Source: Rhodoferax sp. WC2427 (GTDB lineage: Bacteria; Pseudomonadota; Gammaproteobacteria; Burkholderiales; Burkholderiaceae_C). Taken from it: a stretch of 64,000 nt of DNA. Below are positions 3,395 through 23,173 of this stretch, piece by piece. The translations under genes and the position numbers were made by a program. Location of the stretch: assembly GCF_040822085.1 (NCBI RefSeq), contig NZ_CP162006.1, forward strand, positions 1,736,001 through 1,800,000, written 5' to 3'. The notes below the pieces were generated by a model that did no database searches, was not told the origin of the DNA, and saw only the letters and a program-made list of their open reading frames with translations. The number at the start of each line of letters is the position of its first letter. Position 1 is the stretch's first letter.

Positions 3395-3447
3395 ACGCAA
3401 GCTCCAACTCGCCAAGCCTGCCCACATCTCCGGAATCACCCTAATCC

Positions 3448-5337
3448 ATGTCCGTCACCGACACCCTCATCCGCGCCATCGGCCTGCAGAACGAGCGCCA
3501 GCCCGAGGCCGCCTCGGAGCTGTTCAATGAAGTTCTGGCGGTCGATGAGCACAACGCCGCCGCGCTGTATTCGCTGGCGGTGATCGTGATGCAGGCCGGC
3601 GACGCGGCGGGCGCGCTGGCACTGTCGGCGCGTGGCCTGCAACACAACCCGCAGTTCGCTCCGCTGCATTACGTACACGGAGCAGTGCTGCAAGCGCTGG
3701 ACCGCAGAGACGAGGCACTGCAAAGCTTCGATGCGGCGCTGGCCCTGCAGCCCGACTATGTGGAGGCGCTGTTGAACAGCGGCGTGCTGCTGCGCAACAT
3801 GTTCCGCCACCAGGAGGCGCTTGAGCGCTTCAACCGTGTGGTCACCATCGATCCTAACCATGTCACGGCGTTGGGTAACTTCGGCATTTTGCTGACTGAA
3901 TTCAAGCAGAGCGAACAAGCTATCAAGGCCTTCGAGCGGCTGTTGGCCTTGGCGCCTGGCTACGACTATGCACCCGGCTTGCTGTTTTACGAACGCATGC
4001 ATATCTGCGACTGGCGCGGCTTCGACGAGCTGACCCAGCGCCTGGTCGAGGGCGTGCGAGCCGGCCAGCGGGCCTGCAAGTCGCTGGCCTTCATGTCGGC
4101 ATCGGACCAAGCCGCCGACCACCTCCTGGCCGCCAAGACCTTCGCCGCCCATTACTGCCCGCCGAAGCCGGTGGCGTTTTGGCGTGGCGAGCGCTACCGG
4201 CACAGCAAGATCCGCCTGGCCTATGTGTCGCCCGACTTCCGCGAACACCCGGTCGGCCACCTGATGGCAGGCGTGTTCGAGCAGCACGACAAGGGTCGCT
4301 TCGAGACCATCGCCATCTCGCTGGGCATCGACGACCAGAGTCGACTGAGGGCGCGCATGGTAGGCGCCTTCGACCACTTCATCGACGCACGTGGCATGGG
4401 CTCCGAAGAGGTGGCGCGCAAGATGCGCGAGATGGAAGTTGATATCGCCGTGGACTTGGGCGGGTACACGAGCGACACCCGTACCGATATCTTCGCCTAC
4501 CGGCCTGCGCCGGTGCAGGTCAATTACCTTGGTTACCCGGGCACCATGGGCACGCCGTTCCACGACTACATCATTGCCGACCGATACACCATTCCGCCTG
4601 AGCATCAGACCCTGTACACCGAGCGCGTGGTCTACCTGCCCGACACCTACCTGCCCACTGACAACAGCGTGCAGATCGCCGACAACACACCGTCCCGGGC
4701 GGAGTGCGGCCTGCCCGAAGCCGGCTTCGTGTTCTGCTCGTTCAGTCATGACTACAAAATCTCGCCGCCGGTGTTCGGCGTGTGGATGCATCTGCTGGCC
4801 CAGGTGCCGGGCAGCGTGCTGTGGTTGGTGTCGCGTGGCGAAGTGGCCCAGCGCAACCTGCGCGCGGCGGCCGAAGCCCGCGGCATCGACCCTGCGCGCC
4901 TAGTGTTCGCGGGCCGCGTGCCGCGGGTAGAGGACCACCTTGCCCGCTATCGCCAAGCCGACCTGTTCCTCGACACGCATCCCTACAACGCGCACACCAC
5001 CGCGGCCGATGCGCTGATGGCCGGCCTGCCGGTTGTTACCTGCATGGGCGGCTCGTTTCCCTCGCGGGTGGCGGGCAGCCTGCTGCATGCTCTGGGGGTG
5101 CCCGAACTGGTGACGCAGTCGCTTGAAGGCTACGAAGCACTGGCCCTGGGCCTGGCGCGCGACCCTCAGGGCCTGGCCGCGCTGAAAGCCAAAATTGCGG
5201 CTAATCAGAACACCCATTCGCTGTTTGATACGGCCCGCTTCTGCATTAACCTCGAAGCAGTCTACATCGCCATGTGGCGCACCCAGGAGCTGGGCAACGT
5301 GGCCGATGCCCTTGCACCAGCCCGCAACACCAATTGA
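3448..5337 (+). CDS. TPR-containing O-GlcNAc transferase-like glycosyltransferase (GT41/SPINDLY family)
   Basis: The 629-aa product begins with about five tetratricopeptide repeats (residues 1-170). From about residue 250 on it continues into a GT41 catalytic region. Recognisable OGT-type segments are YVSPDFREHPVGHL, VDLGGYTSDTR, VQVNYLGYPGTMG, LVFAGRVP and, near residue 511, HPYNAHTTAADALMAGLPVV, which forms the nucleotide-sugar site. GT41 enzymes transfer GlcNAc or related sugars from UDP-sugars to Ser/Thr of proteins, with the TPRs recruiting substrate. The gene lies between the outer-membrane factor and a methyltransferase, in an island whose main product is a Thr-rich giant protein. Glycosylation of that protein is therefore a reasonable inference, but sugar and target are not proven. 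It has no signal peptide and is cytoplasmic. Confidence 0.9.
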   Translation: MSVTDTLIRAIGLQNERQPEAASELFNEVLAVDEHNAAALYSLAVIVMQAGDAAGALALSARGLQHNPQFAPLHYVHGAVLQALDRRDEALQSFDAALALQPDYVEALLNSGVLLRNMFRHQEALERFNRVVTIDPNHVTALGNFGILLTEFKQSEQAIKAFERLLALAPGYDYAPGLLFYERMHICDWRGFDELTQRLVEGVRAGQRACKSLAFMSASDQAADHLLAAKTFAAHYCPPKPVAFWRGERYRHSKIRLAYVSPDFREHPVGHLMAGVFEQHDKGRFETIAISLGIDDQSRLRARMVGAFDHFIDARGMGSEEVARKMREMEVDIAVDLGGYTSDTRTDIFAYRPAPVQVNYLGYPGTMGTPFHDYIIADRYTIPPEHQTLYTERVVYLPDTYLPTDNSVQIADNTPSRAECGLPEAGFVFCSFSHDYKISPPVFGVWMHLLAQVPGSVLWLVSRGEVAQRNLRAAAEARGIDPARLVFAGRVPRVEDHLARYRQADLFLDTHPYNAHTTAADALMAGLPVVTCMGGSFPSRVAGSLLHALGVPELVTQSLEGYEALALGLARDPQGLAALKAKIAANQNTHSLFDTARFCINLEAVYIAMWRTQELGNVADALAPARNTN

Positions 5338-5359
5338 CCCCCTGAATGGAGAAAACGCC

Positions 5360-5870: not shown

Positions 5871-7079
5871 TTAAAAGGCGTCGATAGCCTTGGCGATGGT
5901 CTGTCCCAGCAACCCGTAGCCCGAGTTGGCCAAAATGTCGCGTTGCACGTGTTCGATCAAAGCGGCGCGTTCGTGGGCATGGGCCGGGTTCGAGAAATAG
6001 CTGGTCCGGTCAGCCAATTCGGCCAGCGTGCGAAATGAGATTTCCGCATGGGCTGAGGTCAGCGCTGCCAGGCCCTCCCGGGCATCGGTCAGGCACAGCC
6101 CACCGGCCATGAACACATCGTGCACCCGGTTCACCACCGCATGGTCGAACTGCAACGACGAGATGTTGATGTTCACCCGGCGGCGATGGAAGACCCGCTG
6201 CAACGCCGCAGGGTCGTAGACCGCCGGGTGGTAAGAAACACCGTGCCGGACAACCTGTAGGCTGCGGTTTACCTTGTGCAGGTAGGCGGGGTCGCCGCCA
6301 AAAATTTCCAGCGGCGCGATGCCACATTCCTCGAACACCCAGCCGCGAAAAGGCAGCGTCTGACCGGTGATCTCATTGCGCAGCCACTGCGCCTGCGCCA
6401 CCCGCAGCAGAGTCTGGTCCGAAGCGTGGCCAATGCCGTCGATGGCCTGATCGGCATAGGCTTTGACTAACGGCTCCAGCGGGCTGGCGAAGTCGGCCCG
6501 CCGGGCTGCTATCACATCGTCGACCAGCTTCAGGAAACGCGGCGACGAACCGTCCGGCGGATACAGGCCGCTGGGCACGACATGGCCGACGAAGCTGGTT
6601 CCAAAATCGAAGCCATAGAGTTCGGGCGGAACGGGATAGGTGTCGCTGGCGTGCGAGACCAGTTGGACATTGGCAATGCCCACAGCGTGCAGGTCAGCCA
6701 CGTTGTCTGCCTCGATGCAAAGGTGGGCTGACCGCTCTGCCACCCGCAGCCAGGCGTGCAATTTGGCCACGCCGTCCAGGAGGCTCATCCCACCGAGGAT
6801 GGCGTCCTGGTGAAGAAAAATCAGCTGGCCAGGAAAGTGCTCGAAGAAAAAGGTGCCGCTGCCTGGTTGCCTGGACTGGATCACCTGGCTGGAAGCATTT
6901 GACACGTACACCGCGCCGTTCTGACCCTTCAGAAAATCGGCGAAGCTGTCGCTGTTGAAGCCGTCCGGTTTGATGATCATTACGTTGAAACCCAGGCGCT
7001 GCAGTTCGGCACCCAGAGCGTGAGCGATGCGCCGGTAGATCGGCGTGTGCGACTCTTCGATGTAGACGGTCCGGGCCAT
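5871..7079 (-). CDS. CgeB-like glycosyltransferase
   Basis: The chosen start is the ATG at 7079 (MARTVYIEESH), 7 bp after the upstream glycosyltransferase stop; a longer frame upstream reads the other gene out of frame and is ignored. The 402-aa protein has a Rossmann-like N half. Its C-terminal segment NINISSLQFDHAVVNRVHDV followed by AGGLCLTD is characteristic of the CgeB/Glyco_trans_1_2 (GT-B) family. CgeB relatives are found in glycosylation clusters for surface proteins and spore coats. With the DUF5672 gene it probably extends or modifies a glycan on the island's surface protein (inference). It has no signal peptide or membrane segment and is likely cytoplasmic. Confidence 0.75.
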   Translation of the reverse strand: MARTVYIEESHTPIYRRIAHALGAELQRLGFNVMIIKPDGFNSDSFADFLKGQNGAVYVSNASSQVIQSRQPGSGTFFFEHFPGQLIFLHQDAILGGMSLLDGVAKLHAWLRVAERSAHLCIEADNVADLHAVGIANVQLVSHASDTYPVPPELYGFDFGTSFVGHVVPSGLYPPDGSSPRFLKLVDDVIAARRADFASPLEPLVKAYADQAIDGIGHASDQTLLRVAQAQWLRNEITGQTLPFRGWVFEECGIAPLEIFGGDPAYLHKVNRSLQVVRHGVSYHPAVYDPAALQRVFHRRRVNINISSLQFDHAVVNRVHDVFMAGGLCLTDAREGLAALTSAHAEISFRTLAELADRTSYFSNPAHAHERAALIEHVQRDILANSGYGLLGQTIAKAIDAF

Positions 7080-7086
7080 CGTGGTC

Positions 7087-7869
7087 TCAGGCCAAGGCCG
7101 ACAAATGTGGCAATGCGGCGGCGCCCTGTGGCCCGAGCAAAGACAGCCAGAAGGCCGGGTCGTACTTCCACCAGGCGTGCCCGCCCATCGGGGGCGACTG
7201 CGGGTTGAGGCCGAGGTAGCGCTCGGCCTGTAGCTCCAGCGCAAAGGTGGCGGCGGTCAGCTCGTTGGGCAACACGAAGTCGAGAGACAACGAACCCATC
7301 ACACCAAAGAACAGGTCTTCGCTCGAGCCGGCCTGCTCGAACACCGTCACCGCTTCGGGAAACTCATGCAGTAGCGCAACGCTTTTGCGGATGCGCCGCA
7401 GGCTCAGCCCGCCGTTGCCGACATGGGCTTGCACCTTGCGCCCACGCGGCCCATCGAACTTGCCCAGGTTGACGAACAGTTCGAACGCGTCGGGCCATGG
7501 CGCGCCAACGTAGTCATAAGGCCGCCCGCACCACAGGTCGAGATCGTCGCGCAGCAAGATAGCGTCGGTCTGCAGGATCAGCATGAATTCGAACTCGGCG
7601 AAACCCTGGTAGAAAGCCGGTGACAACAGCAATCGGCTGTAGCCCTGAACCGTGGCGAAGCTGGCATCGTCATAACGGCGTAGCGTGATGTCGGGGAACT
7701 CGGCAGCATAACGGGTGAAGTCGAGCGATGCGGGGCCGACGAAGAATACCTGCCGGCCCGGTGCCAGCTGCGCCAGCGAATGCCGCAGCGAGAAGCTTTC
7801 GAGCGCGCTGAGTCTGGCCTTGTAGGTAGGCACTACTATGGCGACGGATGCGGCGGTAGAAATAGTCAT
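7087..7869 (-). CDS. DUF5672-type glycosyltransferase
   Basis: This 260-aa protein begins with a GT-A-like strand (VAIVVPTYK) and carries the segments LMLILQTDAILLRDDLDLW-like and YDYVGAPW. It also has a GNGGLSLRR motif and a later SEDLFFGVM acidic motif. These are the hallmarks of the DUF5672 family, which resembles GT-A glycosyltransferases: the D-x-D-like acidic residue binds metal/nucleotide sugar and GNGG/SED form the active site. It lies 200 bp downstream of the giant gene on the same strand and 7 bp before the CgeB-like gene, so these two are surely cotranscribed. The donor sugar and acceptor are not visible from sequence. Confidence 0.75.
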   Translation of the reverse strand: MTISTAASVAIVVPTYKARLSALESFSLRHSLAQLAPGRQVFFVGPASLDFTRYAAEFPDITLRRYDDASFATVQGYSRLLLSPAFYQGFAEFEFMLILQTDAILLRDDLDLWCGRPYDYVGAPWPDAFELFVNLGKFDGPRGRKVQAHVGNGGLSLRRIRKSVALLHEFPEAVTVFEQAGSSEDLFFGVMGSLSLDFVLPNELTAATFALELQAERYLGLNPQSPPMGGHAWWKYDPAFWLSLLGPQGAAALPHLSALA

Positions 7870-8068: not shown

Positions 8069-11000
8069 CTAGCCTTTGCCGTTGCCTGCCGCCAGGATAC
8101 CTTGGTGGATTGGGTCCTGGCCCGGCAGGCTCAGGGATTTGCCCAGCGTTGCCGCCGACATCGTGGCATGGCTTACCGTCGACTGTCCGTTCGCGTCGAA
8201 CTGCTTCATGGCGTCGACCATGCCGCCGATGGCCAGGGCCGCCGGGCCTTGCATAGCGCCGGCGATGCGGCTCGTGTCCAGCCCGCCGGTGCCCGTCGGG
8301 GTTTCGCCCGAGCCCGCCGCTCCGCCAAAGCTGCTGATGGCCTGCGCCAGGCTGCTGACCCGGCTGCGCAGATTGTCGGCGGGCGCCGGTGCGTCGACGG
8401 TCGGCTTGGCCACATCCACCGGTGCCAGCCAGCCGGTCGCCGCCAGTGCCGGGGTCGGCGCAGTGGTGGCGACGCTGGCGGCGGCCGTGGCCTCGGCCAC
8501 CGAGACGGTTTGGGACTTGTCGGCCACAAACCAGACGTCGGCCGCCTGGTGCGAAACGCCGTCGGTGGTTTCGTAGGAAGAGGTCAGGCCGACCAGGTTG
8601 CCGTTGTCCTTGCTCAGGTCCTTCAAGGTCGACAGGCTCAGACTGGCGATGTTCAGCGAGGCCAGGGTCTTCAACTCGTCGGCCTGGCTCACGCCGTCCG
8701 AGTTGCTGTCGACCCAGACCCGCAGGTCGGAGAAGGCCGCGTCGGACGCGTTGACCACACCGTTGCCGTCTAGGTCGAGCTCGCGCAGCGCGGCGTAGCC
8801 GTCGGTCGCTTTCGCACCTGAGGCCATCGTGGTCGACGAGCCGAACAGCTCGGAACCGTCGTTGATCTGGCCGTCATGGTTGCGGTCGAGCACCAGCAAA
8901 CCGTCGCCGCCGCTGACCCAGCCGGTGTTGACCGCATGCCCTTCGGCGAACAGGTCGAACTTCACGCCGTTCTGGATACTTTGCGTGTTGATGCCGTTGC
9001 CGTCCAGGTCCAGGATGATTGGCGTGCCGAGCTTGAGGAACGGTGCCTGCGTGGTGGTGAAAGCCTGTGTCTGCGTGGTGGTGAAGGCCTCGAACTGGAT
9101 CGCGGTCAGGGCCGTAAGCTGCGACGTGGTCAGGGCCACGATGGCGCTGGTGGTCAGGGCGCGCAACTGCGTGCTTTGCAGCACCTGCACGTCGACCGTC
9201 TCGAAGGCTGCGACCTGGGTGGTCGTCAGTACGGCGATATCGGTAGTGGTCAGCACCCGCACCTGGCTGGTCGAAAGCGCGGCGATCTGGCTGGTGTTAA
9301 AGGCCTGCACCTGCGCCGTGGTCAGCGCGGCGATGCCGGCCGTGGTCAGGGCCTGCACTTGCGCCGTGGTCAATGCGGCCACGTCGGCCGTGGTTAGAGC
9401 CACCACCTGGGTGGTCCTGAGCGCGGCCACGTCGGTGGTCTCGATCGCTGCGACCTGGGTGGTGGTCAGCGCTGCGACTTGCACTGTCGTCAGAGCCTGC
9501 ACCTGGCTGGTGGTAAAGGCGAGCACCTGGCTGGTGGTCAATGCCTGCACCTGCGTAGTGTTCAGCGTAGCCACGCCAGCCGTGGTCAGTGCCTGCACCT
9601 GGGCGGTGGAGAGCACCGCCACATCGGCGGTGTTCAGCGCGCCGACCTGGGTGGTCTTGAGCGCGGCGATGTCGGTTGTCTCGATGGCGGCGACCTGGGT
9701 CGTCGTTAGTGCGGCGATGGCGGCGGTGCTCAGCACCTCGACCTGGCTGGTTTTCAAAGCTACGATCTGCGCGGTGGTCAGCACCTGCACCTGAGCCGTG
9801 GTCAGCGCAGCGACACCACCAGTGGTCAGGGCCTGTACCTGGGCCGTGGTCAGGACTGCTACGTCTGTGGTCTCCAGTGCCTGGACCTGGGTGGTCTTGA
9901 GTGCGGCCACGTCGATAGTCTCGATGGCTGCGACCTGAGTGGTCGTTAGCGCGGCTATGGCGGCGGTGCTCAGCGAGGCAATGCCCGCCGTGGTGAAGCC
10001 GGCGATCTGCGCGGTGGTCAGCGCCTGCGTCTGGGCTGTGTTGAGCACGGCAACCTGGGTGGTTCGCAGCGCGGCGATATCCACGACTTCGATGGCGGCC
10101 ACCTGGGTCGTAGTCAGGGCCGCGACCGCGGAGGCGCTCAGCACCTCGATCTGGGTGCTCTTCAGGGCCACGATTTGGGCTGTCGTCAGCGCCTGGGCCT
10201 GGGCCGTGTTCAGCGCCGCGATGCCAGCGGTGGTCAGGGCCTGGACTTGGGCGGTGTTCAGCACCGCCACGTCGGCGGTGTTCAGTGCCACTACCTGGGT
10301 GGTGCGTAGCGCGGCGATGTCGCTGGTTTCGATGGCGGCGACTTGCGTCGTGGTCAGCGCGGCGACCGCTGCCGTGGTCAGCGCCTGCACCTGGTCGGTC
10401 TTCAGCGCCACGATCTGGGCCGTGTTCAGGGCCTGGGCCTGGCTGGTGGTCAGTACAACAACGTTGGCGGTGGTCAACGCGGCGACCTGGGCGGTGGTGA
10501 GCACCGCCACGTCGGCGGTGTTCAGCGCGACGATTTGTGAGGTGCGCAGAGCCCCGATGTCGGTAGTCTCGATCGCCGCCACCTGGGTGGTGGTCATGGC
10601 GGCGATACCGGCCGTCGTCAGAGCGGCGATGCCGGCCGTGGTCAGGGCGACCACCTGCGCGGTGGTCAGCGACACCACCTGGGCCGTGGTCAGCACGCCG
10701 ACCTGGCTGGTGGTCAGCGCGGCGATGTCGCTGGTCTCGATGGCCGCGACCTGGGCGGTGGTCAGCGCGGCGATGCCAGCGGTGGTCAGGGCCTGGATCT
10801 GGGTGGTCTTCAGCGCAGCGATCTGGCCTGTGGTCAGCGCCTGGGCTTGCGCAGTCGTGAGTGCGGCGATGCTGGCGGTGGTCAACGCGTCAACCTGGGC
10901 GGTGGTCAACGCGGCGATATCGGCCGTGTTCAAGGCCACCACTTGTGTCGTCCTCAATGCAGCGATGTCGGTAGCCTCGATGGCGGCTACCTGGGTGGTG

Positions 11001-14000
11001 GTCAGCGCGGCCACCGAGGCCGTGGTCAGCGCCTGCACCTGGTTGGTCGTGAGGCCGACGATCTGCGCCGTGGTCAGCGCCTGCACCTGCGCGGTGGTCA
11101 GAGCGGCGACGCCGGCGGTGGTGATAGCCCCGACCTGCGCGGTGGTCAGCACGGCCAGGTCGGTGGTTTCAAACGCCGCCACCTGGGTGGTGCGCAAAGC
11201 GCCGATGTCGACGGTCTCGATGGCTGTGACCTGCACGCTGGTCAGCGCCGCGATGCCGGCCGTTGTCAGCGAAGCGATGCCGTTCGTGGTCAGGGCCACG
11301 ATCTGGGCAGTGGTCAGCGACGCCACCTGGGACGTGGTCAGCGCGGCGATCTGCGTGGTTCTGAGGGCAGCGATGTCGCTGGTTTCGATGGCGGCGACCT
11401 GCGCCGTGTTCAGCGCCGCCACGGCAGAGGTCGACAGCACTTCGACCTGGCTGGTCTTCAGCGCCACGATCTGCGCGGTTGTCAGCGCCTGGGCTTGGGC
11501 CGTGGTCAGCGCGGCGATGCCAGCGGTGGTCAGTGCCTGGACCTGGGCGGTGTTCAGTACGGCCACGTCGGCGGTGTTCAGTGCGCCGATCTGCGTAGTC
11601 CTGAGGGCCACGATGTCGCTGGTCTCGATGGCGGCGACCTGTGTCGTGGTCAACGCGGCGATAGCGGCGGTGGTCAGTACTTCGATTTGCGCGCTCTTCA
11701 GGGCCACGATCTGGGCCGTCGTCAGCGCCTGGGCCTGGGCTGTGTTCAGTGCGGCGATGCCGGCCGTGGTCAGGGCCTGGACCTGCGCGGTGTTCAGTAC
11801 GGCCACGTCGGCGGTGTTCAGCGCGCCGACCTGGGTGGTCTTCAGCGCTGCGACGTCGTTGGTCTCGATGGCGGCCACCTGCGTGGTCGATAAGGCGGCG
11901 ATTCCGGCCGTGGTTAGCGACGATATTCCGGCCGTGGTCAGCGCCACCACTTGCGCCGTGGTCAGGGCGGCGACCTGGGCGGTGGTCAATACAGCCACCT
12001 GGTTGGTCTCGAGCGCGGCGATGTCGCTGGTCTCGATAGCCGCAACCTGGGCGGTCGTCAAAGCGGCCACGGCGGCCGTGGTCAGGGCTTCTATCTGGCT
12101 GGTCTTAAGCGCCACAATCTGTGCGGTGGTCAGCGCCTGTGCCTGGGTGGTGTTTAGAGCACCGACACCGGCGGTGGTCAAGGCGGCGACCTGGGCCGTC
12201 GTCAACACCGCGATATCGGCTGTATTCAGGGCACCAACCTGGGTGGTCTTCAATGCAGCGATGTCGGTGGTCTCGATGGCGGCGACCTGGGCGGTGGTCA
12301 AGGCGGCAATACCGGCCGTGGTCAACGCGGCGATGCCAGCCGTGGTCAGCGCCACGACCTGGGCCGTGGTCAGCGCCTGAACCTGGGTTGTCGTTAGCGA
12401 GCTGATCTGGGCGGTGGTCAGCGCAGCCACGTCGGTGGTCTCGATGGCGGCGACCTGGGCCGTGGACAAGACCGTCATCTCGCTGGTTGTCAGCGCCTGG
12501 ATCTGGTTGGTCTTCAGCGCCACGATCTGGTCGGTGCCCAGCGCGCGCACCTGTGCCGTCGTCAGCGCTGCAATGCCGGCGGTGGTTAGCGCCTGTACCT
12601 GTGTGCTGGTCAGTGCGGCCACATCCGTTGTGTTCAGCGCGGCGACCTGGGTGGTCTTCAGCGCGGCGATGTCGGTGGTCTCGATGGCCACGACCTGGGC
12701 CGTTGTCAGCGCGGCGATGGCAGCGGTGGACAAAGCCTGCACCTGGTCGGTCTTCAGCGCCACGATCTGCGCGGTGGTCAGCGCCTGGGCCTGGGCCGTG
12801 GTCAGCGTAGCCACGCCGGAGGTGGTCAGTGCCTGTACCTGTGTGCTGGTCAGCACGGCGACGTCGGCGGTGTTCAGTGCGGCGACCTGGGTGGTCTTGA
12901 GGGCCGCGATATCGACTGCCTCGATGGCTGCGATTTGGGTGGTGGTAAGCGCGCCGATGGCGGTGGTCGACAGCACTTCGATTTGGTTCGTCTTCAGCGC
13001 GACGATCTGGGAGGTGGTCAGCGCCTGAGCCTGTGTGGTCGTCAGCGAGGCCACGCCCGCCGTGGTCAGCGCCTGCAACTGGGCCGTCGTCAGCGCTGCG
13101 ACATCGGCGGTGTTCAGCGCGGCGACCTGTGTGGTCTTGAGGGCCGCGATGTCGCTGGTCTCAATGGCGGCGACCTGGGTGGTCGTCAACGCGGCAATGC
13201 TGGCAGTGGTCAGCGCGGCGATGCCAGCGGTGGTCAGTGCAACGATCTGGGCGGTGGTCAGCGCCTGGGTCTGCGCGGTGTTCAGCACGCCCACCTGGGC
13301 CGTCGTCAACACGGCGATGTCGCTGGTCTCGATGGCCGCGACCTGGGTCGTTTTCAGGGCGCCGATGCCGGCCGTGGTCAGAGCCTGGAACTGGTTGGTC
13401 TTGAGGGCAACGATCTGCGTCGTGGTTATTGCTTCAACCTGCGCGGTTGTGAGCGCGGCCACGCTGGCCGTCGTCAGCGCGGTCACTTGCGCGGTGTTCA
13501 GTACGGCAATGTCGGCGGTGTTCAGCGCGCGGACCTGGGTGGTCTCCAGCGCGGCGATGTCGCTGGTCTCGATGGCGGCGACTTGCGTCGTGGTCAACGC
13601 GGCGATAGCGGCGGTGGTCAGCACCTCGATCTGGGTGCTCTTCAGGGCCACGATCTGGGCTGTCGTCAGCGCCTGGGCCTGGGCCGTGTTCAGCGCGGCG
13701 ATGCCGGCCGTGGTCAGGGCCTGGACCTGCGCGGTGTTCAGTACGGCCACGTCGGCGGTGTTCAGCGCGCCGACCTGGGTGGTCTTCAGCGCTGCGACGT
13801 CGTTGGTCTCGATGGCGGCCACCTGGGTGGTGGTCATGGCGGCGATTCCGGCCGTCGTCAGAGCGGCGATGCCGGCCGTGGTCAGGGCGACCACCTGCGC
13901 GGTGGTCAGCGACACCACCTGGGCCGTGGTCAGCACGCCGACCTGGCTGGTGGTCAGCGCGGCGATGTCGCTGGTCTCGATGGCCGCGACCTGGGCGGTG

Positions 14001-16375
14001 GTCAGCGCGGCGATGCCAGCGGTGGTCAGGGCCTGGATCTGGGTGGTCTTCAGCGCAGCGATCTGGCCTGTGGTCAGCGCCTGGGCTTGCGCAGTCGTGA
14101 GTGCGGCGATGCTGGCGGTGGTCAACGCGTCAACCTGGGCGGTGGTCAACGCGGCGATATCGGCCGTGTTCAAGGCCACCACTTGTGTCGTCCTCAATGC
14201 AGCGATGTCGGTAGCCTCGATGGCGGCTACCTGGGTGGTGGTCAGCGCGGCCACCGAGGCCGTGGTCAGCGCCTGCACCTGGTTGGTCGTGAGGCCGACG
14301 ATCTGCGCCGTGGTCAGCGCCTGCACCTGCGCGGTGGTCAGAGCGGCGACGCCGGCGGTGGTGATAGCCCCGACCTGCGCGGTGGTCAGCACGGCCAGGT
14401 CGGTGGTTTCAAACGCCGCCACCTGGGTGGTGCGCAAAGCGCCGATGTCGACGGTCTCGATGGCTGTGACCTGCACGCTGGTCAGCGCCGCGATGCCGGC
14501 GGTCGTCAACGCGGCGATGCCAGCGGTGGTCAGCCCGGCGACCTGGGCCGTGGTCAGGGCCTGGACCTGAGCGGTGTTCAGGGCGCCGACTTGGCTGGTC
14601 TTCAGGGCGGCGACATCGAGGGTCTCGATGGCCAGGACCTGGGTGGTGGTGAGCGCGCTAACGGCGGCGGTTGACAGCACCTCGACCTGGCTGGTCTTCA
14701 GCGCCACGATCTGGGCAGTGGTCAACGCTTGGGCCTGGGCGGTGGTCAAGGCGGCTACACCAGCGGTGGTGACGGCCTGCACCTGGGCGGTTGTCAGGGC
14801 GGCTACGCCGGCGGTGGTCAGGGCCGCGACCTGGGTGGTCTTCAACGCGGCGATGTCGCTGGTTTCGATGGCGGCGACCTGCGTCGTCGTCAAGGCGGCG
14901 ATCGCATTGGTGGTAAGCGCAACGACCTGGTCGGTCTTTAGAGCAACGATCTGCGCCGTTGTCAGGGCCTGGGTCTGGGCGGTGTTCAGAGTAGCTACGC
15001 TACCGGTCGTCAGCGCCTGCACCTGGGCGGTGGTAAGCACAGCGACATCGGCGGTGTTCAGTACGGCGACCTGGGTTGTCTTCAGCGCGGCGATGTCGGT
15101 AGTCTCGATGGCGGCGACCTGGGCGGTGCTCAGCGCGGCGATGCCGGCCGTGGTGACCGCGGCGATACCGGCCGTGGTCAGCGCCACCACTTGCGCGGTG
15201 GTCAGCGACTGCACCTGGGAGGTGGTCAGCGCACCAACCTGGGTGGTCGTGAGTGCCGCGACATCGCGGGTCTCAATGGCCGCCACTTGGGCGGTGGTCA
15301 GCGCAGCCACGCCGGCGGTGGTGATGGCCTGGATTTGGCTGGTCAGCAATGCGCCGATCTGCGTAGTCGTCAGCGCCTGGGCCTGCGCGGTGGTCAGTGC
15401 TGCTACGCTGGCGGTGGTCAGCGCTCCGACCTGGGTGGTCGTCAACACGGCCACGTTGCTGGTGTTCAGCGCGGTGACCTGGCTGGTCCTGAGCGCGGCG
15501 ATGTCGGTGGTTTCGATCGCGGCCACCTGGGCCGTGGTCAGGGCAGAGATGGCCGATGTCGTCAGCGACTGAACCTGACCGGTGGTGAGCGCGACAACCT
15601 GGGCGGTGGTCAGCGCTTGGGCCTGTGCCGTGCTCAGCGTGGCTACGCTGGCGGTGGTGAGTGCGGCCACCTGGGCCGTGCTCAGCACCGCCACGTCGGC
15701 CGTGTTCAGCACCGCCACCTGGGTGGTCTTGAGCGCGGATATGTCGACCGCTTCAATGGCAGCCACCTGGGTGGTGGTCAGCGCCGCGATGCTGGTGGTG
15801 GTCAATGAGGAAATACCGGACGTCGTCAAACCGACGATCTGCGCGGTGGTCAGCGCTTGGGCCTGTGCGGTGTTCAGCACGGCGACCTGGCTGGTGGTCA
15901 GCGCGGCCACGTCGGTGGTCTCGATGGCGGCCACCTGGGTGGTGGTCAGCGCGGCCACGCTGGCCGTGGTCAGCGCCTGGATCTGGCTGGTGCGCAAGGC
16001 CACGATCTGGCTGGTGTTCAACGCCTGCGCCTGGGCCGTGGTGAGCGCGGCGACTTCAGCCGTGGTCAGGGCGGAGACTTGCGACGTGGTCAGGGCGCCG
16101 ATCTGCGCCGTGGTCAGTACCGCGGTCTGCGATGTCTTGAGCGCGGCGATGTCGTCGGTCGCGAAAGCGGCGACCTGCGTCGTCGTTAATGCGGCGATAC
16201 CAGCGGTGGTAAATGCTGAGACTTGGTTCGTCTTGAACGCTGGAATCTGTGTGGTGGTTAAAGCCTGGATCTGCGCGGTGGTGAGGGACGCGATGTCATC
16301 GGTCGTGAATGCCTGGATCTGTGTGGTCGTCAGCGCCGCGATGACGTCTGTTGAAAAGCCGCTTACGTTACTCAT
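8069..16375 (-). CDS. Giant octapeptide-repeat protein with C-terminal EF-hand-type calcium-binding domain, predicted type I secretion substrate
   Basis: The 2768-aa product has no N-terminal signal peptide. Residues 6-2445 are 305 consecutive octads of the pattern A-L-T-T-A-Q-V-A, without a single insertion or deletion. Thr at octad position 4 is nearly invariant, and positions 3, 5 and 6 vary. About every 7 or 10 octads a marker octad AIETxD(I/V)A occurs. Residues 2446-2768 carry four DxDxDG-like loops (about 2456, 2497, 2534, 2556), including LDRNHDGQINDGSELFG, a module common near the C-terminus of RTX/type I substrates, and then an Ala/Gly/Ser-rich tail. A good ribosome site (AGGGGA, 5 bp before ATG) fixes the start. 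HlyB, HlyD and outer-membrane genes in the same island support secretion by C-terminal signal. Function (adhesin, sheath or S-layer-like) is unknown. Confidence 0.9.
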   Translation of the reverse strand: MSNVSGFSTDVIAALTTTQIQAFTTDDIASLTTAQIQALTTTQIPAFKTNQVSAFTTAGIAALTTTQVAAFATDDIAALKTSQTAVLTTAQIGALTTSQVSALTTAEVAALTTAQAQALNTSQIVALRTSQIQALTTASVAALTTTQVAAIETTDVAALTTSQVAVLNTAQAQALTTAQIVGLTTSGISSLTTTSIAALTTTQVAAIEAVDISALKTTQVAVLNTADVAVLSTAQVAALTTASVATLSTAQAQALTTAQVVALTTGQVQSLTTSAISALTTAQVAAIETTDIAALRTSQVTALNTSNVAVLTTTQVGALTTASVAALTTAQAQALTTTQIGALLTSQIQAITTAGVAALTTAQVAAIETRDVAALTTTQVGALTTSQVQSLTTAQVVALTTAGIAAVTTAGIAALSTAQVAAIETTDIAALKTTQVAVLNTADVAVLTTAQVQALTTGSVATLNTAQTQALTTAQIVALKTDQVVALTTNAIAALTTTQVAAIETSDIAALKTTQVAALTTAGVAALTTAQVQAVTTAGVAALTTAQAQALTTAQIVALKTSQVEVLSTAAVSALTTTQVLAIETLDVAALKTSQVGALNTAQVQALTTAQVAGLTTAGIAALTTAGIAALTSVQVTAIETVDIGALRTTQVAAFETTDLAVLTTAQVGAITTAGVAALTTAQVQALTTAQIVGLTTNQVQALTTASVAALTTTQVAAIEATDIAALRTTQVVALNTADIAALTTAQVDALTTASIAALTTAQAQALTTGQIAALKTTQIQALTTAGIAALTTAQVAAIETSDIAALTTSQVGVLTTAQVVSLTTAQVVALTTAGIAALTTAGIAAMTTTQVAAIETNDVAALKTTQVGALNTADVAVLNTAQVQALTTAGIAALNTAQAQALTTAQIVALKSTQIEVLTTAAIAALTTTQVAAIETSDIAALETTQVRALNTADIAVLNTAQVTALTTASVAALTTAQVEAITTTQIVALKTNQFQALTTAGIGALKTTQVAAIETSDIAVLTTAQVGVLNTAQTQALTTAQIVALTTAGIAALTTASIAALTTTQVAAIETSDIAALKTTQVAALNTADVAALTTAQLQALTTAGVASLTTTQAQALTTSQIVALKTNQIEVLSTTAIGALTTTQIAAIEAVDIAALKTTQVAALNTADVAVLTSTQVQALTTSGVATLTTAQAQALTTAQIVALKTDQVQALSTAAIAALTTAQVVAIETTDIAALKTTQVAALNTTDVAALTSTQVQALTTAGIAALTTAQVRALGTDQIVALKTNQIQALTTSEMTVLSTAQVAAIETTDVAALTTAQISSLTTTQVQALTTAQVVALTTAGIAALTTAGIAALTTAQVAAIETTDIAALKTTQVGALNTADIAVLTTAQVAALTTAGVGALNTTQAQALTTAQIVALKTSQIEALTTAAVAALTTAQVAAIETSDIAALETNQVAVLTTAQVAALTTAQVVALTTAGISSLTTAGIAALSTTQVAAIETNDVAALKTTQVGALNTADVAVLNTAQVQALTTAGIAALNTAQAQALTTAQIVALKSAQIEVLTTAAIAALTTTQVAAIETSDIVALRTTQIGALNTADVAVLNTAQVQALTTAGIAALTTAQAQALTTAQIVALKTSQVEVLSTSAVAALNTAQVAAIETSDIAALRTTQIAALTTSQVASLTTAQIVALTTNGIASLTTAGIAALTSVQVTAIETVDIGALRTTQVAAFETTDLAVLTTAQVGAITTAGVAALTTAQVQALTTAQIVGLTTNQVQALTTASVAALTTTQVAAIEATDIAALRTTQVVALNTADIAALTTAQVDALTTASIAALTTAQAQALTTGQIAALKTTQIQALTTAGIAALTTAQVAAIETSDIAALTTSQVGVLTTAQVVSLTTAQVVALTTAGIAALTTAGIAAMTTTQVAAIETTDIGALRTSQIVALNTADVAVLTTAQVAALTTANVVVLTTSQAQALNTAQIVALKTDQVQALTTAAVAALTTTQVAAIETSDIAALRTTQVVALNTADVAVLNTAQVQALTTAGIAALNTAQAQALTTAQIVALKSTQIEVLSASAVAALTTTQVAAIEVVDIAALRTTQVAVLNTAQTQALTTAQIAGFTTAGIASLSTAAIAALTTTQVAAIETIDVAALKTTQVQALETTDVAVLTTAQVQALTTGGVAALTTAQVQVLTTAQIVALKTSQVEVLSTAAIAALTTTQVAAIETTDIAALKTTQVGALNTADVAVLSTAQVQALTTAGVATLNTTQVQALTTSQVLAFTTSQVQALTTVQVAALTTTQVAAIETTDVAALRTTQVVALTTADVAALTTAQVQALTTAGIAALTTAQVQAFNTSQIAALSTSQVRVLTTTDIAVLTTTQVAAFETVDVQVLQSTQLRALTTSAIVALTTSQLTALTAIQFEAFTTTQTQAFTTTQAPFLKLGTPIILDLDGNGINTQSIQNGVKFDLFAEGHAVNTGWVSGGDGLLVLDRNHDGQINDGSELFGSSTTMASGAKATDGYAALRELDLDGNGVVNASDAAFSDLRVWVDSNSDGVSQADELKTLASLNIASLSLSTLKDLSKDNGNLVGLTSSYETTDGVSHQAADVWFVADKSQTVSVAEATAAASVATTAPTPALAATGWLAPVDVAKPTVDAPAPADNLRSRVSSLAQAISSFGGAAGSGETPTGTGGLDTSRIAGAMQGPAALAIGGMVDAMKQFDANGQSTVSHATMSAATLGKSLSLPGQDPIHQGILAAGNGKG
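10578..11260 (-). repeat. 683-bp duplicated segment inside the octad tract, copy A
   Basis: By eye this stretch matches 13818-14500 base for base except one position (10607 A versus 13847 T). The offset is 3240 bp, exactly five 648-bp superunits. The identity includes synonymous sites, so it is a recent duplication or gene conversion, not selection on protein sequence. Confidence 0.9.
13818..14500 (-). repeat. 683-bp duplicated segment inside the octad tract, copy B
   Basis: Partner of 10578-11260 at +3240 bp. Just upstream of it, around 13705-13820, a second near-identical stretch matches 11761-11876 at an offset of 1944 bp, three superunits. Both copies keep the reading frame and the 10/7 block phase. 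Confidence 0.9.
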
Positions 16376-16810: not shown

Positions 16811-18721
16811 TTACAAAAGGTTTGAGCTGGTGCGGACCTGCTTCCATGCGGTCGCCCGGCGCGTTGCTTCTAGCAGCTGCGGTGGCGTGAGGCGCGCGGT
16901 TGATCGCTCACAGTTGGCGAGCGCAGCGTTGTCACCAGCCTGACTTGCCAGCACGAACCAGGTATGTGCCTCAATGGCATCGGCTGCCACACCTTCACCG
17001 GTGGCGTACATCAGCCCAAGCCTGGCCTGCGCCGCCGGAATACCCTGCGCAGCCGCCTTCAGAAGCCAGCCGAACGCCGTCTCAAGGCTGCGCTTTGTGC
17101 CCTGGCCAGTGGCATGGGCCACCGCCAGGTTGTACTGGGCCTCGGGGTCGCCATGCTCCGCAGCCTGCAACCAGCAGGCCAGCGCCCGTTCCGGGTTTTG
17201 GGAGCGGGCATACAACACGCCCAGTGTTGCCTGGGCTGGGACGAAGTCGAGATCGGCCGCCTTTTGGCACCACACGAAGGCCTGCCGCAGATCCTGCTTC
17301 AGTCCCTCGCCGCCGCTGGCATACATAGAACCCAGATTCCACAAGGCCTTGGCATCACCTTGTTGGGCGGCTTTCGAAAACCACACCAGTGCCTGCTGAA
17401 AGTCTTTGGGCAATCCGACACCGCTCAGGTACGCCGCACCCAGCGCCGACTGTGCCGGAGCATAGGCCTGGTCAGCCGCGCGGCGGTGCCAGTCGAATGC
17501 CGCAACGAGGTCGCGCCCGACACCCTTGCCCAAGGCGTACTGTTGGCCGAGCATGTACTGGCCTTCGGCCATGCCTAAGCCGGCGGCGCGCCGGAAGCAT
17601 TCGACCGACATTACCTCCAGCCCGTTACTGAACAGATGGCCCAACGTAAGCAGCGCCCGGGCATCATTTTGCGCGGCTGCCCGCATGTACCAGGACATGC
17701 CTAGGAAATAGTCTGAGTGCTCCGCGCCTCCCGGCTGGGCTGACGAATACAGCCGGCCCAATGCGAACTGCGCGGCGCTGTCACCGTGCTCGGCGGCTTT
17801 ACGGTACCAGTGCAAAGCTTCGTCTCGCTGACCAGCCTGTTCCAGCAGTTTGGCCAGCGCAGCCTGGGAGGGCGCATGATCCTGGCCCGCGGCGAGCGCA
17901 TACCATTCTCGCGCCCGTTCCGGATCGCATCGCACGCCCAAGCCGAGTTCGTGGATCAATCCCAGGTGGTAGCGCCCGTCGGCCTCAAAGGGGTCGGCCA
18001 CATTCAGCCAGCGCTCCTGGCCGTGATTGATGCCAGGGGCACCTGCGGGCTTACGGCCACGGCCTCGACTCTTCAAGCGGTTATCGTTGGCTTCCAGCAT
18101 GGTAAGCGCCACATGGGCTGCCGGAAAATTCTGTTCCGCGGCACGTCCGTACCAGAATGCCGCCTTGTCCAGATCCCGCCCGATACCTCGGCCTTCCGCG
18201 TACAGTCCGCCCAGCGCATACTCGGCACCGGCCAGACCCTGGTCCGCCGCCTGGCGGTACCAGTGCTGCGCCTGCGAATATTGTTGCAGAACGCCGACGC
18301 CCGCAGCAAATGCTTCGCCTAACGCTAGTTGTGCCTGCGCCACGCCAAACTCGGCGGCCTTGGCAAAACATTGCGTAGACAGCACGTCGTGATGCGCGGC
18401 ATGCAACCTGCCGAGCCGCCAGATAGCTTTCGAATGACCCTGGTCCGCTGCCTTCTGGAACCAGTGGAATGCCTGGAAATCGTCTTTCTCAACTGCGGAG
18501 CCGGCGGCGTAGCGTGTTCCCATTAAGTATTGGGCGGTGGCTAGCCCACGCTCGGCCGCCTTCCTGATCCACTGCAGCGCCTGCTCGATGTCCTGCTCCA
18601 CGCCCACGCCGTTGGCGTACATCAGACCAAGCTCGTACTGTGACTCGATGATGCCGATGCGAGCCTCTTTGAGGGTCTCTTTGAAGCTACGCCTATCGCG
18701 TGCGCTACTCGATGTGGTCAT
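16811..18721 (-). CDS. Sel1-repeat (SLR) protein
   Basis: The 636-aa protein is made almost entirely of Sel1-like repeats, about 36 residues each, with recurring motifs such as A-Q-Y-x-L-G-x-x-Y-A-x-G and A-x-x-W-x-x-K-A-A-x-Q-G. There is no signal peptide or membrane segment. Sel1/TPR-like alpha-solenoids act as protein-binding scaffolds. Lying between hlyD and the giant gene on the same strand, it may be a chaperone or scaffold that keeps the giant substrate unfolded or brings glycosyltransferases to it; this is speculation from position. The gaps on both sides (163 and 435 bp) leave room for its own promoter. Confidence 0.85.
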   Translation of the reverse strand: MTTSSSARDRRSFKETLKEARIGIIESQYELGLMYANGVGVEQDIEQALQWIRKAAERGLATAQYLMGTRYAAGSAVEKDDFQAFHWFQKAADQGHSKAIWRLGRLHAAHHDVLSTQCFAKAAEFGVAQAQLALGEAFAAGVGVLQQYSQAQHWYRQAADQGLAGAEYALGGLYAEGRGIGRDLDKAAFWYGRAAEQNFPAAHVALTMLEANDNRLKSRGRGRKPAGAPGINHGQERWLNVADPFEADGRYHLGLIHELGLGVRCDPERAREWYALAAGQDHAPSQAALAKLLEQAGQRDEALHWYRKAAEHGDSAAQFALGRLYSSAQPGGAEHSDYFLGMSWYMRAAAQNDARALLTLGHLFSNGLEVMSVECFRRAAGLGMAEGQYMLGQQYALGKGVGRDLVAAFDWHRRAADQAYAPAQSALGAAYLSGVGLPKDFQQALVWFSKAAQQGDAKALWNLGSMYASGGEGLKQDLRQAFVWCQKAADLDFVPAQATLGVLYARSQNPERALACWLQAAEHGDPEAQYNLAVAHATGQGTKRSLETAFGWLLKAAAQGIPAAQARLGLMYATGEGVAADAIEAHTWFVLASQAGDNAALANCERSTARLTPPQLLEATRRATAWKQVRTSSNLL

Positions 18722-18884: not shown

Positions 18885-20282
18885 TCAGGGTTCGCGAATG
18901 GCTTCGTTCATGCCCTTCGTTAGCGGCCAGGCCAAATAGGAGATGACCGAGCGCTCGCCGACCACGATCTCGGCGGCCATCGTCATGCCGGGCAAGAGTC
19001 GCGCGCTTTCCTTCATATTCTTCAGCGGTGTCGGCTCTAGCCTGATGCGGCTCACATAAAAAGCGTCGGCGCCCGATTTCACGGCCGCATCCCGGCGGAA
19101 CGCATCCTCGCTGATGGTGCGTACGTGCGCCGACAGCGTGCCGTGGCGCTGGAACGGATAGGCGTCGAGCTTCACATGCACCGGGTCCCCGACCTTGATG
19201 TAACCCACATCGGCGGACTCGATCTGTACCTCGGCCTCGAGCACCACGTTGAGCGGCACCAGAGTAAAAAAAGTCTCAGCCTCCCGGACGATGGAGCCCG
19301 GCGATAGCTTGGCGATCTCCAACACCACTGCGTCCACCGGCGCTGACAAGGTGACCAGTTTCTGCCGGCGATCGGCCTTTTGCAGTTGTTCCTTCAGCGA
19401 GTCGCGCTCGCGCGAAACCTGCAGCATATCCTCCATGGTCTTCTGCCGCCAGCCCTTCTCGAAGGCCATTTTTTCGGCCTCGAAAGATGCTAGTTCGCGC
19501 CGTAGCTCCTGTTCGTGGTTCACTACCTGCTCCAAGTCCCGCTGGACTTCCTTGGTGCGCTGCTGCGCCTCCAGCAACTGCAGCGGTGCGCCGAACTTCT
19601 GGGCCACCATCTTTTCCTGCATGGCCTCTATTTCCTTCAATGAGCGCAGTCGCGAATCCACGAACTGTTGGTCGCGCCGGTTGGTCGACAGCGCAGCCCG
19701 CAGCTTGGCGACGTTTTCGGTCAGTTTCAATTGCTGCGCGCGGTAGTTGGCCTTGCGCTCGTTGAGCAGGCTAGCCTGCAGGAGGCCATCCACATCGGTG
19801 GCGACTTTTTGCTGGCTGTTGTCACCGGCCAGTTCTAGTGCCAGGCCGTCGATCTGGGTCTCCAGGCTGGCTAGACGCTGGCGCAACTGCGACTCGTCGG
19901 CTTGGACGAAGGTTGCGTCCAGCGAGGCCAGACGCTCGCCCCGCTTTACGATCTGGCCGATGCGCACGTCCACGCTCTGCACCACCGCTGTCTCCAGCGG
20001 CTGAACTACCACGTTGGGCAAAGGATTCACTAATCGACCCTGGGCGATGACCACTTGGTCAACCTTTGACACGCTGGCCCAAACAACGAAGGCGATGAAT
20101 CCAAGAACCAGCACGTGCAGTGTGACCTGGGCGAACTTCGGCACCGGGCTGCGCTCGATCTCATCGGCATCTGGCAGGTATTCGACGATGGTGCGGCCGG
20201 GCGGGGAGACTCCCTTTCCCCAAGGCAGCCATCGTTTAGAACCCTTGGTCGGCTTCATAGGTGGCTTGTTTGCTGATTCCAT
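18885..20282 (-). CDS. HlyD-family type I secretion periplasmic adaptor
   Basis: The protein (465 aa from the ATG at 20282; a TTG at 20303 would add seven residues) has one transmembrane helix at about residues 49-70. A short lipoyl-like strand region follows, then a long coiled coil (about 130-290) and the C-terminal beta-barrel with the HlyD signature-like segment GMTMAAEIVVGERSVISYL near the end. Family members bridge the inner-membrane ABC exporter and the TolC channel. Its start overlaps the end of the ABC exporter gene by 28 bp, so they are translationally coupled. It fits a complete type I machine with the gene at 1901. Confidence 0.9.
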   Translation of the reverse strand: MESANKPPMKPTKGSKRWLPWGKGVSPPGRTIVEYLPDADEIERSPVPKFAQVTLHVLVLGFIAFVVWASVSKVDQVVIAQGRLVNPLPNVVVQPLETAVVQSVDVRIGQIVKRGERLASLDATFVQADESQLRQRLASLETQIDGLALELAGDNSQQKVATDVDGLLQASLLNERKANYRAQQLKLTENVAKLRAALSTNRRDQQFVDSRLRSLKEIEAMQEKMVAQKFGAPLQLLEAQQRTKEVQRDLEQVVNHEQELRRELASFEAEKMAFEKGWRQKTMEDMLQVSRERDSLKEQLQKADRRQKLVTLSAPVDAVVLEIAKLSPGSIVREAETFFTLVPLNVVLEAEVQIESADVGYIKVGDPVHVKLDAYPFQRHGTLSAHVRTISEDAFRRDAAVKSGADAFYVSRIRLEPTPLKNMKESARLLPGMTMAAEIVVGERSVISYLAWPLTKGMNEAIREP

Positions 20283-22399: not shown

Positions 22400-22597
22400 G
22401 GTCAATTCCAAATGGAATAGCCTGCATTTCATCATGTGAGCGACGGCCTGATCGGTTGATGAAGACCGGATTACCGAGTCACTTCTCGGGCGATTTTCGC
22501 CAAGGGCCCTAAGGTGCAGCGCTTCGAGCGCGGTTTGCAAGGAATGCTTTGCAGATCCATCGAGATACGTAATATTGTCTAAGCGTGCGACCGCACC

Positions 22598-23173
22598 TTG
22601 CACCAGATGGGCGCTGCGGAGATGTACAGGGCGGACCCGAGTCCAGTCGATGGTGGAGCAGACCGGGTCGTCGAGACCGAAAGGTGGACCACCACGGTAT
22701 CTCGAACAATGCAGGCCCGTACCCGTGACTGGGAAACCGAACGGCGTGCGAACGGGGCGGCTGGGTATTTCCGCACGCTATCGCTACCCGCATTCAAGGC
22801 ATCGGCCGAACGCGACCAGGAAATCCTTGGCATCGCGCCTTTGCCAGGCACTGCCGTCACCGATTTCAACCGGCGACTCGCTGTTCTGCTGGCTGCCGAC
22901 CCGCCAGACTTGGAGAGCGATGACCGCAAGTGGGTCTGCCTGGACGTTGCTCTCACCTTGTTCGCCGAGTTGGTCAAAGGTGCCGACACTCTTGGCGTGG
23001 TGCCGCTAGACAGATCGATTACATACGAAAGGTCAAGGGAGGGCGGTTTCGTTCAGGTCGGCCTTCGGGCCGCTGCGACAGAGCGGTGGAGTGCAGACGG
23101 GACCTTTGCGCTGTATTTGGGTAAGTTGCCTCCACGCTGCCACAAACAAAAAAGCCTGCTACGAATTAAGTAG
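22598..23173 (+). CDS. Hypothetical protein (uncertain gene)
   Basis: An open frame of up to 191 codons, with possible ATG starts at 22598, 22622 and 22709. The part after residue 40 looks protein-like, with alternating hydrophobic and charged residues and no repeats, but I recognise no family. It is divergent from hlyB. A point against it is that its last codons and stop run into the hairpin that terminates tRNA-Lys. No clear ribosome site is visible. It could be a remnant gene at the island edge. Confidence 0.35.
   Translation: MHQMGAAEMYRADPSPVDGGADRVVETERWTTTVSRTMQARTRDWETERRANGAAGYFRTLSLPAFKASAERDQEILGIAPLPGTAVTDFNRRLAVLLAADPPDLESDDRKWVCLDVALTLFAELVKGADTLGVVPLDRSITYERSREGGFVQVGLRAAATERWSADGTFALYLGKLPPRCHKQKSLLRIK

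Follow-up and report, generated by a model that had tools for sequence, protein, structure and literature searches.

A 64,000-nucleotide stretch of the genome of Rhodoferax sp. WC2427 (contig NZ_CP162006.1, positions 1,736,001 to 1,800,000; henceforth termed the window) carries a gene for a 2768-residue protein that consists largely of 305 consecutive eight-residue repeats, or octads. We consider it probable that this protein is a secreted, most likely O-glycosylated rod that bears lengthwise stripes, in which a solenoid turn takes up about 27 residues, and it may serve as a surface or matrix fibre. The octads, predicted helices, period, stripes, homology of a C-terminal module and gene neighbours were computed; from these we infer capping of the rod, its length and the role as a fibre, as well as export and glycosylation, which are read from the neighbouring genes. 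The gene and its array comprise the following features.

8069..16375, minus strand: gene of the repeat protein, 2768 aa (open reading frame, ORF; same-genus ortholog of 2762 aa)
9041..16360, minus strand: 305 octads, residues 6-2445, PF20080, predicted short-helix solenoid (Pfam, octad grammar, AlphaFold2)
9425..15928, minus strand: stretch holding all 31 AIE markers (octads 19-289), putative acidic stripe (spacing and period analysis)

In the frame of this minus-strand ORF, the plus strand is interrupted by stops. The octads follow one another over 7320 bp in a single register with zero indels. A grammar of the form [AVSGT][LIFVM]x[TSAV]xx[VIATLFM]x, composed post hoc with the octads already in view, matches 305 of 305, and in 200 residue shuffles even the best register matches no more than 41 of 304. 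The original prediction, made from the DNA letters, had counted 305 octads without an indel, 7320 bp and 2768 residues, and these figures are borne out by register and grammar. It had also called the octads perfect, which describes their uniform length and not their sequence: only seven are exactly ALTTAQVA, 162 are distinct, and on average an octad agrees with the consensus at 5.3 of 8 positions. Positions 2 (L/I/F/V/M), 4 (T in 290 octads) and 7 (V or I in 276) form the framework, while position 3 is T, N or S in 222 of 305 octads and position 6 is Q, D or E in 240 of 305. As far as can be tested from the sequence data here, the array is not an assembly artefact, a concern raised at the outset, because the genome was assembled as one 4.78-Mb contig and a same-genus genome holds the gene with a gapless array that keeps the same register along its whole length. 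Antisense to the octads, a plus-strand frame of 813 aa is open at 9939-12380, probably as a by-product of the repeat and of high GC content.

The arrangement of the 31 markers points to a geometric rule. Their 30 spacings are each 7 or 10 octads, as originally described, and the proposed 10+10+7 superunits of 27 octads recur throughout, save in one stretch that runs 10,10,10,7,10,7 and sums to 2 x 27 octads. A spectrum of octads 9-299 has its five strongest peaks at 9.0, 2.08, 2.46, 5.40 and 3.37 octads, i.e., at 27/3, 27/13, 27/11, 27/5 and 27/8, which are multiples 1-5 of 8/27 after folding. The peaks therefore fit residues that are set by their angle on a screw with 27/8 octads per turn. 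Read in this way, the predicted turn is 27/8 = 3.375 octads, or 27 residues, and the 10+10+7 super-repeat would arise because 10, 7 and 27 octads lie near 3, 2 and 8 whole turns, holding a given octad type on one face. The three-level hierarchy of the array is thus best read as geometry, in which the acidic markers would form one lengthwise stripe. At 3.375 octads per turn, the markers reach a circular R of 0.98, a value attained by 0 of 10,000 random spacings (maximum 0.58) and by 0 of 10,000 re-orderings of their own spacings (mean 0.87).

Wrapped at this turn, the array bears lengthwise stripes that are acidic, basic, small-residue, Gln and Asn/Asp in character. E3/D6 octads (numbers give the octad position) fall at 120-147 degrees; next come K3 with Q/E8 (160-173), octads whose position 6 is Gly or Ser (187-213), K/R3 (227-253), octads with Ala/Gly/Ser in position 6 (267-293), Q8 (307-333) and N3/D6 (347-0). 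The markers had been suggested to act as kinks or binding sites along a fibre; they do form regular sites, apparently aligned as one stripe on one face, and kinks are not evident. As a control, we re-ordered the octads inside the copied block, identically in every copy. This block-preserving control was relied on because the copied block alone permits few periods and a shuffle of octad order destroys block copying. In the window, the fundamental lay at 3.33-3.47 octads in 19 of 300 re-ordered versions, none of which reached the observed score.

A closely similar period recurs across homologous arrays. Related loci, together with the window, supplied 63 runs with a length of 40 octads or more; a first octad-run finder missed runs in 17 of 60 sequences, and a looser finder was used instead. 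The best repeat lag was 17 octads in 25 runs, 24 in 13, 27 in 7, 34 in 6 and others in the remaining 12, and in 60 of the 63 it deviated by no more than 1/8 turn from a whole number of turns (at 3.40 octads per turn), compared with 17 of the 59 possible lags. By a harmonic score, 47 of 63 runs had their fundamental at 3.33-3.47 octads; in the block-preserving comparison (window in, L010 out), 46 of 62 runs fell in this range against 11.3 expected. When octad order was shuffled, 57 of 63 runs exceeded all 60 shuffles, 55 of them at 3.33-3.47, the exceptions being L015 (3.32) and L049 (3.50).

Pairs of E3/D6 octads, counted in 37 homolog runs without the window, show local maxima at lags of round(3.4n), that is, at whole turns: 230 pairs at lag 7, 236 at 10, 101 at 14, 318 at 17, 119 at 20, 219 at 24, 228 at 27, 68 at 31, 297 at 34 and 73 at 37. 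The lows at lags 8, 9, 11, 16, 18 and 23 comprise 21, 22, 13, 16, 20 and 13 pairs. A spacing of 7 occurs in 29 of the 37 runs and one of 10 in 28, compared with two runs for 8 and one for 9. The one-turn lags 3 and 4 are scarce (32 and 27 pairs), and a minor peak at lag 5 (58) stems chiefly from L010 and two other runs. Three Magnetococcales runs, L025 (with a weak 3.4-octad peak) and L029 and L060 (both without one), have their best harmonic near 2.67, perhaps a different pattern on the same screw; the best lag is 10 octads in L025 and L029.

A structural model suggests a solenoid. For residues 366-797 (window 13985-15280, 54 octads), AlphaFold2 (AF2), supplied with 31 ungapped rows from the window and its relatives, gave a model with a mean pLDDT of 97.3 and a pTM of 0.83, in which each of the 54 octads forms a helix of 4-6 residues and a linker; only helices and linkers are drawn. 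Such a prediction over about 432 residues had been proposed with the original prediction, and its outcome agrees with the first choice made there, a solenoid of very short helices with T-T-A-Q at the helix start. A typical helix runs from position 4 of one octad to position 1 of the following one. Position 3 (T/N/S) would therefore occupy the N-cap, and Q/D/E at position 6 would fit a capping box under the capping-box rule for helix N-termini. In an AF2 model of the C-terminus, the 8-residue rhythm is held by 16 of the last 17 octads, with the 17th shifted.

Foldseek (entries to April 2026) retrieved no close solved fold: the first rank went to mesothelin (7ued; E 1.0e-3, TM 0.26), which we take as the nearest solved fold and not as an established relative, and ARM-type chains scored middling Z values. 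Three other ALTTAQ proteins (P0012, P0056, P0078) bear a precomputed match to PF06060, which we take to be the mesothelin family; mesothelin is likewise the nearest solved fold. For a comparison with ARM proteins, whose repeat is 42 residues long, we used 45 of the best 50 rows, excluding four mesothelin rows and 7qlr and including the engineered proteins 4rv1 and 4hxt, presumably ARM-type. The aligned ranges correspond to 28.1 +/- 0.7 model residues per ARM repeat, in rough agreement with the 27-residue turn.

The repeat itself belongs to a named family. Pfam profile PF20080 (ALTTAQ repeat; 38 positions) matches 88 stretches with 1812.7 bits against a cut-off of 26.4, and residues 2-110 (109 residues) of the solved 120-aa protein HeliScrew4 (PDB 9zem) align with the octads at E 5.5e-14. 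The initial remark that no described protein with this architecture was known is thereby superseded by an existing family. Its function is described nowhere as far as literature searches reach: in an open library, no paper on ALTTAQ/PF20080 or HeliScrew was found, the matches for PF20080 all being off-topic by title, and literature on short-helix solenoids and threonine-rich type I adhesins contained nothing on the ALTTAQ family. HeliScrew4 is absent among the best 50 Foldseek rows (entries to 2026-04-08), and an NCBIfam scan gave no match for the repeat protein. Pfam matches to Fibrinogen_BP and LRR_EndoS exceed their cut-offs, yet we regard them as composition effects.

A database search with residues 1-500, scored on 7992 candidates sharing most words, returned 173 proteins that are large and varied in architecture; source names among the best 120 of the 173 include filamentous haemagglutinin family, Ig-like domain and VCBS repeat proteins. 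The repeat is present in one of 14 named control genomes, that of Caulobacter vibrioides. A related genome contains an ALTTAQ open frame of 6123 residues (G018:C22:4384-21705), more than twice the length of the window protein.

Clues to the fate of the protein come from its neighbours.

16811..18721, minus strand: Sel1-repeat protein, 636 aa (shared with the same-genus relative; homolog in 1 of 68 wider loci)
18885..20303, minus strand: HlyD-type membrane-fusion protein of a type I secretion system (PF13437; TIGR01843 above cut-off)
20255..22603, minus strand: HlyB-type ABC transporter of a type I secretion system (PF00664, PF00005)
3448..5337, plus strand: TPR and GT41 glycosyltransferase, OGT type (PF13844, E 2.3e-85, plus TPR profiles)
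1901..3394, plus strand: outer-membrane efflux protein, NodT type, possible exit channel (PF02321; TIGR01845 above cut-off)
7087..7869, minus strand: DUF5672 protein (PF18922; 3 of 68 loci: L016, L023, L042)
5871..7244, minus strand: glycosyltransferase-like ORF (PF13524)

The HlyB-type, HlyD-type and Sel1 genes lie upstream of the repeat gene on the same strand, a neighbourhood expected of a type I substrate; the best NCBIfam match of the HlyB-type ORF, TIGR01846, scores 635.6 bits, below the cut-off of 725.55. The GT41 ORF combines Glyco_transf_41 and TPR profiles. Its best solved relatives are O-GlcNAc transferases (OGT 7ntf, E 4.4e-107; XcOGT 2vsn, E 5.6e-97), and by alignment it shares with OGT the HP, YK and HTT..D motifs, which presumably have catalytic roles there. 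The same-genus relative shares the secretion genes in the same order as well as the Sel1, GT41 and outer-membrane genes, the latter two adjoining each other in both genomes. For the outer-membrane efflux protein and for the glycosyltransferase-like ORF, no homolog was reported in the 68 wider loci, and neither this ORF nor the DUF5672 gene was found in the relative's stretch (DUF5672: no tblastn match). Minus-strand ORFs at 3436-4791 and 4900-5541, opposite or beside the GT41 gene, were set aside, and their tblastn matches are read as reflecting GT41.

The proposed reading has one main competitor, which we regard as rather unlikely: the solenoid rod would be exported unglycosylated, GT41 would serve another substrate, e.g., flagellin, and the stripes would be protein- or mineral-binding faces. 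The available part of a report on FlmG of Caulobacter indicates that related enzymes can serve flagellins (PMC7591256). Moreover, the fetched flanks of 31 of the 68 loci contain no GT41 homolog, and one of 12 ALTTAQ-bearing genomes is without GT41. Against this alternative, 24 of the 37 loci (out of 68) with a GT41 homolog have it on the same strand at most 2 kb downstream, in loci titled Marinimicrobia and Riflebacteria besides those of Proteobacteria; among the 48 loci having 4 kb of downstream DNA, 21 show this arrangement.

A chance neighbourhood also appears unlikely because, of eight GT41 matches in the window genome, the six listed sit in only two places. The second of these places, G000:C1:506599-511509, holds several GT41 matches within one open frame of 2034 aa. 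In a set of 60 genomes that includes the window's own, a GT41 match lies 2.3-15.2 kb from ALTTAQ in nine of the 12 ALTTAQ-bearing genomes, among the matches listed. Of the other three, G018 has the two about 25 kb apart on one contig, G035 has its listed matches on different contigs, and G031 is the genome without GT41.

The 10+10+7 order, in turn, could be devoid of structural meaning if it were mere duplication history of a 10-octad unit in an array that drifts freely. A single unit, copied as 10+10+7, could account for the 27-octad block, octad identity within the array peaks at lags 27, 10 and 17, and a 653-bp exact repeat (about 27 octads, or 8 turns), with copies 135 octads apart, testifies to copying inside the array.

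13848..14500, minus strand: 653-bp stretch, octads ~79-105, likelier source copy (identical to 10608-11260)
10608..11260, minus strand: 653-bp stretch, octads ~214-240, probably overwritten by gene conversion (comparison with the relative)

For this repeat, gene conversion seems likelier than duplication, because the relative has an equal array length without the 653-bp identity and the second copy is less like the relative in eight of nine compared 72-bp segments. Free drift, moreover, is difficult to reconcile with the ortholog, which retains all 305 octads in register without a gap at 80% amino-acid identity, a dS of 0.73 and a dN/dS of 0.17. Between the two species, octad positions 4, 2 and 6 are best conserved (94, 93 and 92% identical), and 28 of the 31 marker places are kept, with one more at octad 299. 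Relatives with block lengths of 17, 24 and 34 hold a nearly equal period, order within the block matters (46 of 62 against 11.3), and marker lags land on whole turns, the irregular stretch still totalling 54 octads. Duplication history as the sole explanation is therefore improbable.

Downstream of the octads, the protein ends in a module and a tail.

8516..9022, minus strand: calcium-binding module, residues 2452-2620, homologous to the FrpC self-processing module, with Thr replacing the cleaved Asp (PDB 6sjw, Foldseek, alignment)
8072..8515, minus strand: C-terminal tail, residues 2621-2768, candidate uncleaved type I secretion signal (low-confidence AF2)

The module matches PDB 6sjw at E 6.6e-38, and Foldseek aligns its AF2 model with a TM of 0.84 (normalised by target); it keeps the Pro, two Trp aligned to FrpC W451/W519, and the Ca-loop residues. 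These features could indicate an exoprotein of the clip-and-link kind, which like FrpC would cleave itself and become cross-linked to its neighbours; we consider this very improbable. The bond cleaved in FrpC is Asp414-Pro415, according to the available part of PMC7078468, whereas the window protein has Thr-Pro. Across homologs, Pro is preceded by Thr or Ser and in no case by Asp in 26 of 26 motif-matched ORFs, a search that took in only homologs with the module motif pattern (L015 and L054, e.g., lie outside it), and in 24 of 24 alignment rows, which represent 24 of 27 stretches, window and L088 counted (L053, L058 and L059 were omitted to keep the set small). In a separate MAFFT alignment, three gapped rows (L044, the second L020 row and L052) were dropped before the next version. 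As the Asp before Pro is missing, no clip-and-link reaction is expected. Many homolog ORFs are without the module motif and end octad-like (e.g., L013, L021, L033, L039, L046, L049, L055 and L075). The AF2 model of the C-terminus draws some helices from model residue 321 onward, where ten-residue blocks have mean pLDDT values of 33-55. Pfam detected no RTX nonapeptide repeat (PF00353) in the repeat protein at E up to 1.

Least probable of all is a beta-solenoid, which the original prediction had offered as its alternative, or an amyloid-like Thr-rich fibre, e.g., of the ice-binding type: threonine makes up 22.8% of the array, frequently in pairs, and there are the LRR_EndoS match and weak variable-lymphocyte-receptor matches, but AF2 draws every modelled octad as helix and linker with a pLDDT of 97 and the sequence-matched solved protein is named HeliScrew4.

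For the secreted, glycosylated rod that we favour, we propose the following course. Each octad would form one short helix and a linker, with about 27 residues making one alpha-solenoid turn. The 305 octads would then amount to about 90 turns and, assuming that each turn rises by close to 1 nm as in other alpha-solenoids, the rod would be roughly 90 nm long. The protein appears to have no evident signal peptide, its octads starting at residue 6. While the chain is still in the cytoplasm, the TPR-GT41 enzyme encoded nearby would probably O-glycosylate some of its threonines, much as FlmG acts on flagellins. Export would follow, C-terminus first, via the neighbouring HlyB/HlyD-type system. Outside the cell, Ca2+ would fold the FrpC-like module into a cap at the rod end that leaves first; lacking the cleaved Asp, this cap is not expected to cut itself. 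The rod, with its stripes and sugars, might then act as a surface or matrix fibre. Several elements of this scheme, namely the minus strand, the FrpC-like module, the type I secretion genes, GT41 and the reason for 10+10+7, had been missed in the original prediction.

A number of results weigh against this proposal. Adjacent azimuth bins are 10 or 17 octads apart, and duplicated 10-octad units would yield part of the striping. The ARM-based turn, an indirect estimate, is 3.51 octads (3.32-3.87) and thus slightly above 3.375, and the structural matches are middling. No 2.9-4.1-octad peak rises above the 60 octad-order shuffles in six of the 63 runs (L010, L016, L028, L029, L060, L062), and the best harmonic lies outside 3.33-3.47 in 16 (8 near 2.67; L010 at 2.51). 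The runs are related, with up to three per locus, and hence non-independent, and tandem copying inflates the lag counts. The GT41 gene of the window is convergent and lies about 2.7 kb beyond the repeat-gene stop, not directly downstream. HlyB-like and HlyD-like hits occur in 19 and 13 of the 68 loci at E<=1e-5, and in 13 and 9 at >=35% identity, with many of the contigs ending early. Finally, genome-level enrichment of GT41 is modest (11 of the 12 genomes with ALTTAQ versus 26 of the other 48; Fisher p 0.015, or 0.026 when restricted to the family).

Beyond this single protein, we tentatively raise the possibility that in ALTTAQ arrays a surface pattern is written into the gene. The turn of about 3.4 octads would be nearly fixed, super-repeats would be held to whole turns (7, 10, 14, 17, 20, 24, 27 or 34 octads), duplication and gene conversion, both respecting the turn, would extend the stripes, and at least one stripe would be a track that a linked GT41 decorates with sugars before export. 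If true, the family would represent a new class of exported, glycan-bearing alpha-solenoid rods, and the unit of GT41, rod and export system would add a kind of bacterial surface glycoprotein. The analysis turns a previously unexplained repeat family into testable claims: a fold, a 27-residue turn, stripes readable from sequence alone and a candidate modifying enzyme. Structural biologists and protein designers would take an interest in a regular rod on which the choice of octad determines each face.

Among known systems, mesothelin and the ARM/HEAT alpha-solenoids resemble the predicted rod in being solenoids built from short helices; mesothelin comprises 24 short helices in nine layers, as stated in the available part of PMC10035497. 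HeliScrew4, likened here by sequence match alone, probably has the same local fold, with octads of the LTPEQ type in place of LTTAQ. FrpC of Neisseria meningitidis has the homologous Ca-binding module, but the window protein is without the Asp before Pro and without an RTX repeat match. FlmG, like the window enzyme, consists of TPR and GT41 parts. The accessible portions of the literature describe FlmG as a modular flagellin O-glycosyltransferase in a cytoplasmic O-glycosylation pathway of Caulobacter (PMC7591256), and HMW1C-like enzymes as acting on the HMW1 adhesin, where they modify Asn (PMC3012730, PMC3983070). Both are glycosyltransferases that act on exported surface proteins. The substrates differ, however: flagellins for FlmG, a two-partner-pathway adhesin modified on Asn for HMW1C-like enzymes, and in the window a predicted short-helix solenoid encoded beside a type I system. 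Since they modify Asn, HMW1C-like enzymes would be the looser parallel. PF20080, for its part, provides a name and a profile, to which the present analysis adds a turn of about 3.4 octads, the stripes and the linkage to GT41.

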